The translations under genes and the position numbers were made by a program. A stretch of DNA of 64,000 nt from Alphaproteobacteria bacterium (GTDB lineage: Bacteria > Pseudomonadota > Alphaproteobacteria > JAJUGE01): contig JAJUGE010000007.1 of the NCBI GenBank assembly GCA_029268305.1, forward strand, positions 1 through 64,000, written 5' to 3'. Below the pieces are notes generated by a model. The model saw only the letters and a list, made by a program, of their open reading frames with translations. It was not told the origin of the DNA and ran no database searches. This document shows, one piece after another, positions 533 through 6,895 of the stretch; position 1 is the stretch's first letter, and each line of letters begins with the position of its first letter.

Positions 533-3100
533 GTGTGGGGCGCGGTGGGCCAACGCCGAAAACGGATCATACGGGCTAAGGCGCCGGTCGCGCCGAGACG
601 CAACCGCGCTCCGGCCGTGGTCCTCCTCTTAGGTCTGCTCGCTCTTCGCCTGCTCGATCCTCCGCTTGTGGAAGGTTTGCGCGAGATCGGATTCGATCTC
701 TACCGCCTGGTCGAACGCACCGACGAAGCGCCCCGGGAAAGCCGCGTCCTGACGGTGACGATCGATGAGCGGAGCCTCGCCCGCTACGGCCAGTGGCCCT
801 GGCCGCGTAATCTGCTCGCGCGGCTTCTGGACACCATAGCGCGAGGAGGGCCGAGCGCCCTCGGGTTGAACATTCTGCTGCCTGAGCCGGACCGAATGTC
901 GCCCGCACGGATCGTCGAACATCTCGACGGGCTGAGCGCGGAGGCTCGGGAGGAGATCCTGCGGTTCGGGTCGGCGGATGACGAATTGGCATCCGTCCTG
1001 GCCGACACTCCGAGCGTTCTCGCTATGGCCGTAACAGGCCAGTCGTCGCGGAGGCGGAATACCGACCACATCAGGCTGCATGAGATCGTGTTTGCCGGCG
1101 CCCGCACGGAGGTGGGGCTGCCGCAGTTCGGCGGTGTGGTTCGCAGTCTGCCACGGTTGACCAATGCTGCGGCCGGTGAGGGGATCGTCAACTTCGAGCT
1201 CGAGCGCGGGGCCGTTCGCCGCCTGCCTGCGGCAGTGCGGGTCGGATCGACGACGCTGCCTTCCCTGCCTCTCGAAATGCTCAAGGTAGGTCTCGGTGCC
1301 AGGCAGGTTCTCGTGCGCACCGGGCCCGCCGGGATCGAGGGGATCATCGTCGGTGGCCAGTCCCTGCCGACCGACGGATCGGGGAACTTCAGACCCCGCT
1401 TCACCGAACCGGCGGCGCGCTCACAACTATCGGCCTTGGCGGTACTCGCCGGAGAGGTGCCGCCGGAGGTCTTCCGGGACAAGTACGTGATCATCGGCGC
1501 TTCGGCGAGCGGGTTGGCAGAGCGATACACGGTACCGGGGGTCGGCAGATTGACCGGGCTCCAGCTGCATGCGCAGTTGCTCGACAACATCCTAAGCTCG
1601 CAGCTCCTGCAGCGACCCGCATGGTCGCCGATCCTCGAACTGACCCTGATGCTCGCTTCCGCGACAATCCTGATCCTTTGCTTGCCGATGGTGCGGCCGA
1701 TCGGGGAGATCGTCCTCCTGTTCGCCGTCACCGGCAGTTTGATAGCGGGCGGGCTGACGGCGTACTTCGCCGCGGGAATGCTCATCGACGTCGTTTGGGC
1801 GCTTGTTGCCTGCTTCGCCGCGTTTCTCGCCATCACCATTCTCCGCCGCGTCGCGGAGGAACGGGACGGGCGAGAGGTCTCGCGCCGTATGCAGATTCTC
1901 GAATCGACGCTGGACACGGTGCCGGTACCGGTCTTCGTGTCTTCCCTTTCCGACGACGCCATCCTCTATGCAAATGCATCGGCGCGGGAGAACCTGCAGA
2001 TCGGCGGGGGTGCCGGTGCGGGTGCCGAGATGTCGCAGGTTCTGCGCAATGGGGACGATTGGGAGCGTCTTCTCGGACGACTCCATATCGACGGGCGGGT
2101 CGACGGCTTCGAATCACCGGTCAACGGCGCGTCCGGCGATATCGTGGCGCTGCTCTCCGCGCGAAGGCTCGAGTATCAGGGACAGGACGCCGCCCTCGTC
2201 GCCTGCGTCGACATCAGCGACCGCAAGCGGATGGAGAACGCACTTCGTTTCTCCCGCGACGAGGCAGAGCGAGCGAGCAAGCGGCTGCGCGACACCCAGG
2301 CGGAGCTGGTGCAGGCCGAGAAGCTCGCCTCTCTCGGCGGTCTGGTCGCAGGCGTCGCGCATGAGATCGCCACCCCGGTAGGAATTGGACGGGCCGGCGC
2401 CACGCACATCGTGGAACAGATCCGCGAGCTTCGGGGGCTGTTCGACGAAGGCGAACTTCGCCGATCCCGCTTCGAGCGCTTTCTCGAGGGCCTCGAGGAG
2501 GCGGCCGATCTGGTGGCGTCCAACGTCCAGCGCGCGGCGAATCTCATCCAGGGGTTCAAACGCGTGGCGGTCGATCAGGCAAACGAGCAGCGCCAGGTCT
2601 TCGAGCTGAAGGGCTATCTCGACGACGTGATCAACAGCCTGCAGGCGGAGCTAAACCGTACCGGCAATCGGGTAGACGTGGACTGCCCGGAGGAGATCAC
2701 GCTGGACAGTTACCCGGGCGCGATCGCGCTGATCGTGACGAATTTCGTCATGAACGCGCTAGCGCATGCATTCGAACCCGGCAGCCCGGGAACCGTACGG
2801 TTCACCGCGCGATCAGACGGCGACGAGGTCGAGCTTCGCTGTTCCGACGACGGCAGAGGCATGCCGAGGGAGGTCATTTCGAGGGTTTACGATCCCTTCT
2901 TTACTACACGGCGCGGTCGCGGCGGTAGTGGGCTCGGTCTCTATTTGGTATTCAATAGTGTCACCAAGGTCCTCAGGGGGCGGATCGAGGTCGAGAGCGA
3001 GGAAGGCAAAGGGACGACTTTCGTCGTCCGTTTCCCGCGTGTCGTGCCCATGGAAGAGGCATCATCGGGCGCATTGTCGGTGGTGGGCATCGGGGGGTAA
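533..3100 (+). CDS. CHASE2-domain PAS sensor histidine kinase
   Basis: This is a membrane histidine kinase with an extracytoplasmic CHASE2 sensor. Order of parts: a hydrophobic segment near residues 27-43; a CHASE2 region at about 50-350 (VTIDERSLARYGQWPWPR is typical); three membrane segments at about 364-440; a PAS domain at about 450-565; a coiled coil; and a dimerisation domain with phospho-acceptor His610 in VAHEIATP. The HATPase domain has an N box (TNFVMNALAHA), DDGRGMP and SGLGLYLV. The GTG start at 533 lacks a good ribosome site, and GTG 545 is an alternative. The next gene starts 11 bases on and encodes a receiver-kinase, so a phosphorelay is likely. The signal sensed is unknown. 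Confidence 0.88.
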   Translation: MWGAVGQRRKRIIRAKAPVAPRRNRAPAVVLLLGLLALRLLDPPLVEGLREIGFDLYRLVERTDEAPRESRVLTVTIDERSLARYGQWPWPRNLLARLLDTIARGGPSALGLNILLPEPDRMSPARIVEHLDGLSAEAREEILRFGSADDELASVLADTPSVLAMAVTGQSSRRRNTDHIRLHEIVFAGARTEVGLPQFGGVVRSLPRLTNAAAGEGIVNFELERGAVRRLPAAVRVGSTTLPSLPLEMLKVGLGARQVLVRTGPAGIEGIIVGGQSLPTDGSGNFRPRFTEPAARSQLSALAVLAGEVPPEVFRDKYVIIGASASGLAERYTVPGVGRLTGLQLHAQLLDNILSSQLLQRPAWSPILELTLMLASATILILCLPMVRPIGEIVLLFAVTGSLIAGGLTAYFAAGMLIDVVWALVACFAAFLAITILRRVAEERDGREVSRRMQILESTLDTVPVPVFVSSLSDDAILYANASARENLQIGGGAGAGAEMSQVLRNGDDWERLLGRLHIDGRVDGFESPVNGASGDIVALLSARRLEYQGQDAALVACVDISDRKRMENALRFSRDEAERASKRLRDTQAELVQAEKLASLGGLVAGVAHEIATPVGIGRAGATHIVEQIRELRGLFDEGELRRSRFERFLEGLEEAADLVASNVQRAANLIQGFKRVAVDQANEQRQVFELKGYLDDVINSLQAELNRTGNRVDVDCPEEITLDSYPGAIALIVTNFVMNALAHAFEPGSPGTVRFTARSDGDEVELRCSDDGRGMPREVISRVYDPFFTTRRGRGGSGLGLYLVFNSVTKVLRGRIEVESEEGKGTTFVVRFPRVVPMEEASSGALSVVGIGG

Positions 3101-3111
3101 TCGAAGCGACC

Positions 3112-4389
3112 ATGATCTCGCCTCCGGAGGACGATCCGTTGCTGTTCCTCGAGGAGGACAGCGATCCGCCCGCGCCCGAGGAGCATGGGGCGGTCTGGCG
3201 CGTTCTCATCGTCGACGACGATCCGGGGATAGCCGCGGTGGCTCGGGTAATCCTGCGGGACCTCGTGTTTCTCGGCCGCGGTGTCGAGTTGCTTGCCGCC
3301 GGGTCGGCGGCCGAGGCCAAATCCATTCTTCTCCATCGGTCCGATATCGCGGTCGTGCTTCTGGATGTCGTCATGGAGAGCGAGGATGCGGGATTGGTGC
3401 TCGCTCGGGAGATCCGGGGCGAACTGGAGAACGCGGACATCCGGATCGTCCTGCTGACCGGGCAGCCGGGTCAGGCGCCCGAGCGGGAGGTCGTCCTCGG
3501 CTTCGACATCAACGACTACAAATCGAAGGCCGATCTGACGGCGCAGAAGCTCTTCACCACGGTGGTGGCTGCCCTCCGTACGTTCGCCGAGATCACCGGG
3601 CGCCGGCGCGCGGCCGAAGAGCTGAAAGCGGCACTGACGCGAGCCGAAGTGGCCGATCGTGCGAAAATGGAGTTCCTGGCCAATGTCAGCCACGAGCTTC
3701 GCACACCGCTCACCGCCATAATCGGCTTCTCCGATCTCATGCTGCGAGAGATTTTCGGCCCGGTTCAGCCGCGGAAATACGGCGAGTATCTCGCCGACAT
3801 CCATGCCAGCGGAGAGCACCTGCTGAACCTGGTCAACGAGATCCTGGACATGTCCAAGATCGAGGCCGGGAAAGCCACCCTCGAAGAGACCGACATCGAC
3901 GTGGCTGCGGTCGTGGACGAATGTCTGCGCATGCTGGAGCCGGAGGCGGTCCGAAAGCACCTCGCGCTGCATCGAGTCATTCCGCCCGCCCTGCCTCGGC
4001 TGAGGGCGGACACGCTGATGCTGAAGAAGATACTTCTCAACTTGCTGTTCAATGGCATCAAATTCACGCCGCCAGGAGCTGGAGGGGTGGAGGTGAGCGC
4101 GAGTCTCGGATCCGACGACAGCATGACCCTGATCGTCTCCGACAGCGGAATCGGCATACCGGCGAAGGATCTCGCGCGGGTGGTCGAGCCGTTCAGCACG
4201 GTAGACACCGCGCTGAGCGGCAACTACCAGGGGATCGGGCTCGGCCTCACGATCGCCACCCGGATGATGGAGCTGCATGGCGGGCGACTGACGATCGACA
4301 GCGTCCCGAGCGTCGGCACGCGGGCAAGCCTCCACTTCCCGCCGGAGCGCACCGTGCTGCCGGATCAGGTGAGCGGCTCTCGCTGCTGA
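3112..4389 (+). CDS. Soluble hybrid: N-terminal receiver plus histidine kinase
   Basis: This is a cytoplasmic two-component protein with no membrane segment. After an acidic Pro/Glu/Asp-rich leader there is a receiver domain (about 29-150) with the acidic cluster DDD at 35-37, phospho-acceptor Asp85 in LLDVVM and a lysine in YKSK. A histidine kinase follows, with His194 in NVSHELRTPL, N box LLFNGIKFTPPG, DSGIGIP and GIGLGLT. The receiver-first order suggests it takes phosphate from, or is gated by, another kinase. The CHASE2 kinase ending 11 bases upstream is the obvious partner. No DNA-binding output domain is present. Confidence 0.87.
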   Translation: MISPPEDDPLLFLEEDSDPPAPEEHGAVWRVLIVDDDPGIAAVARVILRDLVFLGRGVELLAAGSAAEAKSILLHRSDIAVVLLDVVMESEDAGLVLAREIRGELENADIRIVLLTGQPGQAPEREVVLGFDINDYKSKADLTAQKLFTTVVAALRTFAEITGRRRAAEELKAALTRAEVADRAKMEFLANVSHELRTPLTAIIGFSDLMLREIFGPVQPRKYGEYLADIHASGEHLLNLVNEILDMSKIEAGKATLEETDIDVAAVVDECLRMLEPEAVRKHLALHRVIPPALPRLRADTLMLKKILLNLLFNGIKFTPPGAGGVEVSASLGSDDSMTLIVSDSGIGIPAKDLARVVEPFSTVDTALSGNYQGIGLGLTIATRMMELHGGRLTIDSVPSVGTRASLHFPPERTVLPDQVSGSRC

Positions 4390-4407
4390 GTTCGGGGGAG
4401 GGAAAAG

Positions 4408-4899
4408 ATGCTCAGTCGGCTGATCTTCGAGCTCGTCTGTCGGTCGAAAGCGGCGGCGCCGTTTCTGATCATCGCGGCCGGATTTCAGCTGATGACCCCG
4501 CTCCCAGCGGACGCAGCCGACTGGATCGGACGCGTCAAGACACTGGAGGGGATCGTCTATGTCGAACGCGACGGCAGCCGGGAGATCTTGTCGGCAGGTG
4601 ACCGGGTGATGCTGGGAGACTGGCTGGAAACCGACGGCTCCGGTTCGGTGGGTATCGCGTTTCGCGACAACACCATAATCTCCATCGGCCCCCGCACCCG
4701 CCTCTTGCTGCGCGAGTACGCATTCGCCCCGGCCGACGACCAGCTCGGCTTCGCCCTGGATCTCGTTCGCGGTACTCTGCTGTACATATCGGGCATCATC
4801 GCCAAGCTGCTGCCTGATGCGGTCGAGGTCCGAACTCCAGCCTCGACGGTCGCGGTTCGAGGGACGCGGTTTCTGGCAGCGGTAGAGCCGGAATCCTGA
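4408..4899 (+). CDS. Secreted FecR-domain protein
   Basis: This 163-residue protein has a likely signal peptide (hydrophobic stretch ending near residue 36 at ADAADW) and one FecR domain, shown by VRTPASTVAVRGTRF near the C terminus and an early ligand-like segment (GDRVMLGDWLETDGSGSVGIAF). Classical FecR is a transmembrane anti-sigma regulator. This protein has no cytoplasmic anti-sigma part and no sigma gene beside it, so a periplasmic structural or ligand-binding role is more likely. It lies 18 bases after the receiver-kinase gene and 49 before an OmpA-like lipoprotein gene, which suggests one envelope-sensing operon. Confidence 0.85.
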   Translation: MLSRLIFELVCRSKAAAPFLIIAAGFQLMTPLPADAADWIGRVKTLEGIVYVERDGSREILSAGDRVMLGDWLETDGSGSVGIAFRDNTIISIGPRTRLLLREYAFAPADDQLGFALDLVRGTLLYISGIIAKLLPDAVEVRTPASTVAVRGTRFLAAVEPES

Positions 4900-4948
4900 A
4901 GGCGGCGATCTCGAGGTTTCGGCGACGATATCGGGCGCTGGGGGGACG

Positions 4949-5542
4949 ATGGTACGACGGATTGTGACGCTGTGCTTCGTTGCTGTCGCGGTCGCGGCCT
5001 GCGAGGCGAAGGAAACCTTCGTGCTCTTGCCCGACGAGGATGGTTCAGGCGCGATAGAGGTGCGTGGGGCCGGTTCCGAGCTGCTCGTCGATTCCGCCTG
5101 GAGCGCAGTTGCCGTGGACGACGAAGGGGTTCCGCGTCGGCCCCTGCTCGGCATGAGCCGGGCCGCCGTCGTAAGCCGGTTCTCGGCCGTGCTCGACCGA
5201 CAGCCGCGACCTCCACATACAGAAATCCTGCATTTCGAGACCGGAGCCGTGACGCTGACGGCGCCGGCACGGGCTCGTCTGGCCGACGTGGTCGTGATGA
5301 TCGACGACCGGAGCTATCCGGACGTCAGCGTCGTAGGGCATACGGATCGCGCCGGGGACCTGGCGCTGAACCTCGAGCTGTCGCGGCGTCGTGCCGAAGC
5401 GGTCCGGGACCTGCTGGTCTCCAGGGGCGTCGATCCCGAGGTCATCAGTGTGACGTCCCATGGTGAAAGTAATCCTCTAGTGCCGACAGAGGACGACGTG
5501 CCGGAGCCGCGGAACCGAAGGGTTGAAGTCATTGTTCGATAG
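4949..5542 (+). CDS. OmpA-family outer-membrane lipoprotein
   Basis: The N terminus has a lipoprotein signal with lipobox AVAAC (Cys18), so the protein is probably lipid-anchored. The C-terminal half is an OmpA-like peptidoglycan-binding domain: ILHFETGAVTL, GHTDRAGDLALNLELS, RRRAEAV and the ending RNRRVEVIV. It would tether the outer membrane to murein. It is the last gene of the CHASE2 kinase, receiver-kinase and FecR series and may supply the cell-wall-contacting part of that system. The family assignment is firm. The link to signalling is inferred from gene order. Confidence 0.88.
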   Translation: MVRRIVTLCFVAVAVAACEAKETFVLLPDEDGSGAIEVRGAGSELLVDSAWSAVAVDDEGVPRRPLLGMSRAAVVSRFSAVLDRQPRPPHTEILHFETGAVTLTAPARARLADVVVMIDDRSYPDVSVVGHTDRAGDLALNLELSRRRAEAVRDLLVSRGVDPEVISVTSHGESNPLVPTEDDVPEPRNRRVEVIVR

Positions 5543-5665: not shown

Positions 5666-6895
5666 ATGCTCTATCAACTGCACGAGATGCAACACGCGGC
5701 CTGGGCGCCGGCGCGAATGATGGCCGAAGCCGCGCTTCAGTTTTACCGGCACCCGATGGTTCCGATCTCCTATACCGGCTATGGCAGGGCCATGGCGGCG
5801 GCCTGCGAGGTGTTCGAACGAGTTACCCGACGCCGTGGCAAACCGCAGTTCGGCCTGCACGAAACGCAGATCGACGGGCGAGCGGTCCGCGTCGAGGAAG
5901 AGGTGGTGCTGGCGCAGGATTTCTGCGACCTGGTGCATTTTCGGCGGGATGCGGCGCGCACTGATCCGAAGGTGCTGGTGGTCGCGCCGCTCTCCGGACA
6001 TTTCGCGACGCTGCTGCGCGATACGGTACGAGCGCTGCTGCCGGCGCATGATGTCTACATCACCGACTGGATCGATGCGCGCGACGTGCCGGCTCGCCTC
6101 GGCGGCTTCGACCTCGACGATTACATCGAATACGTCATCCGCTTCCTGAAGTTGCTCGGGCCGGAGACGCACGTTCTCGCCGTGTGTCAGCCCTCCGTGC
6201 CGGTATTGGCCGCGGTCTCGCTCCTCGCTGCCGCGGGCGACGAGACGCAGCCGGTCTCGATGACGCTCATGGGCGGCCCGATCGACACGCGCCAGAACCC
6301 GACGAAGGTAAACGAAGCGGCCGAATCGCGATCGATTGGCTGGTTCGAGAACCGGGTGATCGCCACGGTCCCCGCAAACTATCCCGGCTTCCTCCGCCGG
6401 GTTTACCCGGGATTCATCCAGCTCACCGGCTTCATGAGCATGAATCTCGACCGACACCTGGGCGCCCACATGCAGCTGTTCGAGCATCTGGTGCAGGGGG
6501 ATGGCGAGAGTGCGGAAGCCCACCGTCGGTTCTACGACGAGTACTTGTCGGTGATGGATCTGCCCGCCGAATACTACCTGCAGACGGTCGAAACGGTCTT
6601 CCAGAAGCACTCGTTGCCGAAGGGAGAGATGACATGGCGGGATCACCGGATCGAACCGTCGGCGATCCGGCACACGGCGCTGATGACGGTCGAGGGGGAA
6701 CTGGACGACATTTCGGGCGTGGGGCAGACGCGAGCCGCGCACGATCTGTGCACGGCAATTCCGGCGGAGCGTCGTAGGCACTATCTGCAGCAGGGCGTCG
6801 GTCACTACGGGATCTTCAACGGCCGACGTTGGCGCGGCGAGATCCTGCCGCGAGTAGCCGCCTTCATGCGGGAATGCGAGGTAGGCCGCGCCTGA
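5666..6895 (+). CDS. phaZ: Intracellular poly(3-hydroxybutyrate) depolymerase
   Basis: The 409-residue protein matches the intracellular PhaZ family that breaks down stored PHB granules. Its alpha/beta-hydrolase nucleophile is Cys174 in the box VCQPSVPVLA, as in the Ralstonia-type enzymes, rather than Ser. A late GHYGIFNG segment supplies the His. The N terminus (MLYQLHEMQHAAWAPARMM) is characteristic of the family, and the length is normal. It stands alone here, with no phaC or phasin gene in the window. A 123-base gap precedes it and the aldolase gene follows 96 bases later. Confidence 0.92.
   Translation: MLYQLHEMQHAAWAPARMMAEAALQFYRHPMVPISYTGYGRAMAAACEVFERVTRRRGKPQFGLHETQIDGRAVRVEEEVVLAQDFCDLVHFRRDAARTDPKVLVVAPLSGHFATLLRDTVRALLPAHDVYITDWIDARDVPARLGGFDLDDYIEYVIRFLKLLGPETHVLAVCQPSVPVLAAVSLLAAAGDETQPVSMTLMGGPIDTRQNPTKVNEAAESRSIGWFENRVIATVPANYPGFLRRVYPGFIQLTGFMSMNLDRHLGAHMQLFEHLVQGDGESAEAHRRFYDEYLSVMDLPAEYYLQTVETVFQKHSLPKGEMTWRDHRIEPSAIRHTALMTVEGELDDISGVGQTRAAHDLCTAIPAERRRHYLQQGVGHYGIFNGRRWRGEILPRVAAFMRECEVGRA

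Follow-up and report, generated by a model that had tools for sequence, protein, structure and literature searches.

A CHASE2 sensor kinase gene clustered with an apparently split FecR/OmpA pair in an alphaproteobacterial genome

Gene content of the locus

The window analysed here, i.e. the whole stretch of 64,000 nucleotides from contig JAJUGE010000007.1 of an alphaproteobacterium, starts at position 1 of the contig. Between positions 533 and 5542 of the + strand, open reading frames and Pfam domains define genes for a histidine kinase with a CHASE2 domain, a soluble receiver-histidine kinase, an exported FecR protein and a lipoprotein of OmpA type. These four genes had been described in the original prediction as a tight series, which their coordinates bear out (intergenic gaps of 11, 18 and 49 bp). 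The individual features are:

533-3100, + strand: gene 1, CHASE2-type sensor histidine kinase, 855 aa, GTG start (ORF, Pfam)
626-1663, + strand: CHASE2 domain of protein 1 (Pfam PF05226, E 8e-45)
3112-4389, + strand: gene 2, soluble receiver-histidine kinase, 425 aa, with Response_reg, HisKA and HATPase_c (ORF, Pfam)
4408-4899, + strand: gene 3, short exported FecR protein, 163 aa (ORF; Pfam FecR profile, positions 3-80 of 97)
4858-4866, + strand: RGT codons, aa 151-153 of protein 3 (motif; by Pfam FecR coordinates near Gly181-Thr182, where E. coli FecR cleaves itself)
4949-5542, + strand: gene 4, OmpA-like lipoprotein, 197 aa (ORF, Pfam)
5009-5230, + strand: LLPD region of protein 4, aa 21-94 (homology to the segment after the FecR domain in single-chain FecR proteins)
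5234-5518, + strand: OmpA peptidoglycan-binding-type domain of protein 4, aa 96-190 (Pfam)

The series is flanked on the 5' side by the end of a UvrB-like gene (3-428, recognized by eye), where the view upstream stops with the contig, and on the 3' side by a PHA depolymerase gene (5666-6895). No sigma-70-like promoter was found at the locus, a search of low weight in a genome of 65% GC. As the original prediction held for the cluster, ORFs and Pfam domains revealed no DNA-binding response regulator within 533-5542, nor in the adjacent genes as far as the contig end upstream.

Protein 1 combines a CHASE2 domain with a kinase core, the combination that defines a CHASE2 sensor histidine kinase. 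Beyond CHASE2 it contains additional hydrophobic segments, a cytoplasmic linker, an H-box with His610 (nt 2360-2362) and a HATPase_c domain (Pfam, E 7e-24); HisKA had no Pfam match. In protein 2, the receiver possesses Asp85 (nt 3364-3366) together with the usual acidic residues, Thr and Lys, and the kinase part has its own HisKA His194. Both residues between which phosphotransfer had been predicted, His610 and Asp85, are thus in place. We take the receiver (window 3112-3560) to resemble those usually paired with DUF3369, which is absent here.

Inspection of the sequences shows a signal peptide at the N-terminus of protein 3 and a lipobox (VAAC, with Cys18) at that of protein 4. FecR (PF04773) is the sole Pfam domain of protein 3, in keeping with the earlier description of a FecR protein devoid of an anti-sigma part. 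The OmpA domain of protein 4 carries HTD ... NxxLSxxRA, the signature of the murein-binding type. The preceding region, which we named LLPD after its motif VVLLPDxDG, matches no Pfam family. In an AlphaFold model of gene 4, which carries little weight for or against the proposal below because its input alignment had two sequences, the OmpA domain folds and the LLPD region does not.

Association of CHASE2, FecR and OmpA genes

CHASE2 and FecR genes number just three each in the genome containing the window, and they form three neighbouring pairs, every FecR gene being situated within about 3 kb of a CHASE2 gene. Among 59 relatives of the same class, many CHASE2 loci, for the most part with cyclase outputs, had FecR in their vicinity; OmpA near CHASE2 was rare in them, and the module was not evident there from OmpA alone.

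The phylum was then searched with an alignment of two FecR proteins, that of the window and its counterpart from a sister genome (the only one sampled from the same family), a query blind to both CHASE2 and OmpA. The 38 loci with the best FecR similarity, including the window, its sister and one locus from a separate FecR-pair search, were annotated with our own profiles. An OmpA gene was located directly downstream of FecR on the same strand in 36 of the 38 loci, and the two genes overlapped by 4 bp in 11 of the 38, like a translationally coupled pair. CHASE2 genes were present at most 9 kb from FecR in 23 of the 38 loci, as against approximately 0.3 expected by a rough estimate, and these loci come from ten families of the sampled phylum. 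At the level of whole genomes (n=397), CHASE2 was present in 161 of 174 genomes with FecR of this kind vs 40 of 223 without it, corresponding to an odds ratio of 57; as the 397 genomes are mutually related, the p-value should not be taken for a strict probability.

OmpA-like genes are common, several per genome, and the locus might accordingly be read as unrelated envelope genes that are neighbours by chance or for housekeeping reasons. Since the genes are enriched near one another in this genome and across families, and also co-occur at the level of whole genomes, we attach practically no credence to this reading. Chance pairing of FecR with CHASE2 and of FecR with OmpA is refuted by the surveys; the association of all three is not due to chance, and the co-occurrence anticipated in the original prediction extends far beyond it, across the ten families.

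The arrangement of the genes is less constant. In the sister genome, whose FecR and OmpA proteins are 42% and 40% identical to those of the window over the aligned part, the order is FecR-OmpA-CHASE2 kinase, while the kinase comes first in the window. The survey thus spoke against a conserved gene order, which is permuted even within the family. A receiver-kinase companion was not detected in the other modules examined with a single-sequence profile, which a distant version could escape. Of the initial interpretation, the grouping of CHASE2, FecR and OmpA therefore stood, and the fixed order and the receiver-kinase membership found no support; the putative signalling step through the receiver-kinase is suggested by gene adjacency. 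The lack of a DNA-binding regulator is usual for the module, none being seen directly beside the other kinase-type loci. Finally, 15 of the 38 FecR loci had no CHASE2 nearby, from which it follows that the FecR-OmpA pair may have other partners as well. Thirteen of these loci belong to 12 searched genomes, and CHASE2 was present elsewhere in all 12.

A FecR domain apparently divided between two proteins

Protein 3 ends 10 residues past RGT. This motif is at least 90% conserved among short FecR proteins, and 26 of 26 aligned short FecRs stop 7-15 residues past RGT or its equivalent. We rejected the possibility that gene 3 is a mere truncation, as its relatives terminate at the same place.

A profile of the LLPD region was constructed from 35 OmpA lipoproteins of split loci and nothing else. 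It matched the region just past FecR in single-chain proteins, with domain E-values of 2e-15 (L166), 2.5e-15 (L182), 1.3e-14 (L175), 4e-14 (L181) and 2e-11 (L154), the weakest matches being 5e-6 (L168) and 3e-3 (L052). The LLPD match begins 7-10 residues past the FecR match in these proteins (25 in L168). An independent profile comparison (hhalign) of LLPD with the post-FecR region gave 97% and E 1.7e-11 over 70 columns. The single-chain proteins L154, L166, L175, L181 and L182 have a surface- or adhesin-type look, and some of them are thousands of residues long.

Judged by this homology, the OmpA lipoprotein carries what elsewhere continues the FecR domain. Since short FecRs stop past RGT and LLPD matches the post-FecR segment, a single FecR domain seems to be divided between the products of genes 3 and 4, the latter of which would be anchored to the outer membrane and murein. 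The homology of LLPD to the single-chain continuation also provides an argument of the gene-fusion type for physical association of FecR and OmpA, which falls short of proof of a complex. Alternatively, FecR and OmpA might be two independent exported proteins, each presenting a cell-wall or outer-membrane cue to CHASE2 with no joint domain, as originally proposed. Their shared compartment and conserved neighbourhood speak for such separate presenters, but the homology of LLPD to the post-FecR region and the termination of short FecRs just before it speak against them. We regard this alternative as unlikely; the two proteins are probably parts of one FecR domain.

A division at this point has a possible counterpart in the self-cleavage of FecR proteins. 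In both E. coli FecR and FoxR, self-cleavage takes place at a Gly-Thr bond of the periplasmic FecR region, and the two halves of FoxR stay associated and function jointly. Gly181-Thr182 of E. coli FecR sits in the motif LTALGTEFTV at approximately Pfam position 75, and the GT of the window FecR at approximately position 73, which would place the gene split near the natural two-chain site. These positions were derived from Pfam coordinates because global alignment with anti-sigma FecRs misaligned them; a comparison of the window FecR with E. coli FecR by hhalign put GT on GT in a weak match (3%). Based as it is on Pfam coordinates (about 73-75) and the motif, the placement of the split with respect to Gly-Thr is to be taken as approximate. 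The two-chain state of FoxR may be regarded as a precedent for a two-chain FecR domain. In FoxR, the two chains result from self-cleavage, whereas those proposed here come from two genes, the second ending in OmpA.

Input or output of CHASE2 signalling

The first half of gene 3 matches a cell-surface anchoring domain of an RTX adhesin (PDB 5ix9) both in sequence (profile, E 1e-10) and in predicted fold (Foldseek TM 0.77 over the target, for an AlphaFold model that is well folded only at about aa 40-80), and it weakly resembles the LapA retention module. A PDB sequence search with gene 3 found 5ix9 and not PupR. The 5ix9 domain, deposited as an antifreeze protein, belongs to a giant surface adhesin, unlike gene 3. 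The resemblance suggests shared ancestry of FecR domains and adhesin retention modules. It would also suit a reading in which FecR-OmpA serves a structural or anchoring purpose, much as such modules do, and CHASE2 signalling merely controls its level or state, which would make the pair an output. The 15 loci where CHASE2 is not nearby would suit this reading too.

On the other hand, periplasmic CHASE2 domains with quite different outputs retain the same exported partners, as expected of an input. The outputs among the module loci were cyclase, HD-GYP, GAF plus HD, SpoIIE phosphatase, kinase and kinase with receiver, most relatives having cyclase, HD-GYP or SpoIIE. Moreover, a periplasmic FecR-LysM protein is encoded together with a CHASE2 kinase in the BiofilmReg operon (see below). 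We therefore consider it quite improbable that the exported pair is an output, and treat it as input.

Two loci deserve mention with respect to outputs. In L151 (4910-9932), genes for STAS-like, metallo-beta-lactamase-fold-like, CHASE2-SpoIIE, OmpA, FecR and RsbW-like kinase proteins occur together (STAS-like and RsbW-like assigned by eye), likely a partner-switching pathway under the same sensor. One relative, represented by the two contigs L041 and L044, has a CHASE2 kinase gene whose product ranks among those most similar in sequence to the window kinase. This gene is apparently interrupted where a contig ends, and a FixJ-like regulator and a lone receiver come after it.

Proposed model

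The locus unites all features of the module we propose: a short FecR protein ending past RGT, an adjacent LLPD-OmpA lipoprotein and a CHASE2 receptor nearby. The model starts from what was computed: which genes are present, how they are conserved, and that the gene 4 region is homologous to the post-FecR segment. According to the model, secreted FecR (gene 3) and the N-terminal region of gene 4 would join in trans to form a single beta-solenoid of the FecR type, tied to the outer membrane and murein by the lipoprotein. Thus anchored, the FecR unit would touch the CHASE2 domain of the kinase in the periplasm, and through this contact CHASE2 might be altered by a ligand or by changes in the cell wall or the outer membrane. 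Autophosphorylation of His610 could then be followed by transfer of phosphate to Asp85 of the receiver-kinase, tuning its own activity toward a response regulator encoded elsewhere. We hold such a three-protein envelope sensor, with the split FecR/OmpA unit contacting CHASE2 and feeding a kinase pair, to be the leading explanation of the locus, and a moderately probable one.

Comparison with known systems

CHASE2-FecR clusters are already known. The BiofilmReg operon of Burkholderia contaminans encodes a response regulator, a LysM-FecR protein, a CHASE2 kinase and a DUF4136 protein (PMC5192318). It shares with the window a CHASE2 kinase beside an exported, murein-tied FecR protein, plus an exported protein of a lipoprotein family. 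The murein tie of FecR is a LysM fusion in BiofilmReg, while here, FecR stands alone in Pfam terms and the tie would be provided by OmpA on a separate lipoprotein with a region similar to the C-terminal part of FecR. Furthermore, BiofilmReg has a DNA-binding response regulator, in place of which the window locus has a receiver-kinase as its second gene. In Campylobacterota, a CHASE2 adenylate cyclase is clustered with a phosphodiesterase, a FecR outer-membrane protein and a TPR protein (PMC9239204). As outlined in that source, this cluster likewise joins CHASE2 with an exported FecR-domain protein, but the output is a cyclase, and an OmpA lipoprotein is not part of the cluster described.

With the anti-sigma regulators FecR, FoxR and PupR, protein 3 shares the PF04773 domain with its conserved GT; unlike them, it lacks the anti-sigma domain, the membrane helix and the STN domain. 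E. coli FecR additionally contains FecR_C, whereas protein 3 has PF04773 only.

Neither CHASE2, FecR and OmpA together nor the split FecR/OmpA arrangement was found in the literature searched, and the papers joining CHASE2 with OmpA were unrelated, judging by titles and abstracts. It is conceivable, and we suggest it tentatively, that the module stands for a broadly distributed class of envelope sensors. In these, a single FecR domain, assembled in trans from two exported proteins with one half fixed to the outer membrane and murein, would report the condition of the envelope to CHASE2 receptors with interchangeable outputs. The murein-tied exported pair, apparently one domain in two pieces, offers a concrete candidate for what CHASE2 reads. 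If true, this would provide a likely function for the many short FecR proteins that lack an anti-sigma part.
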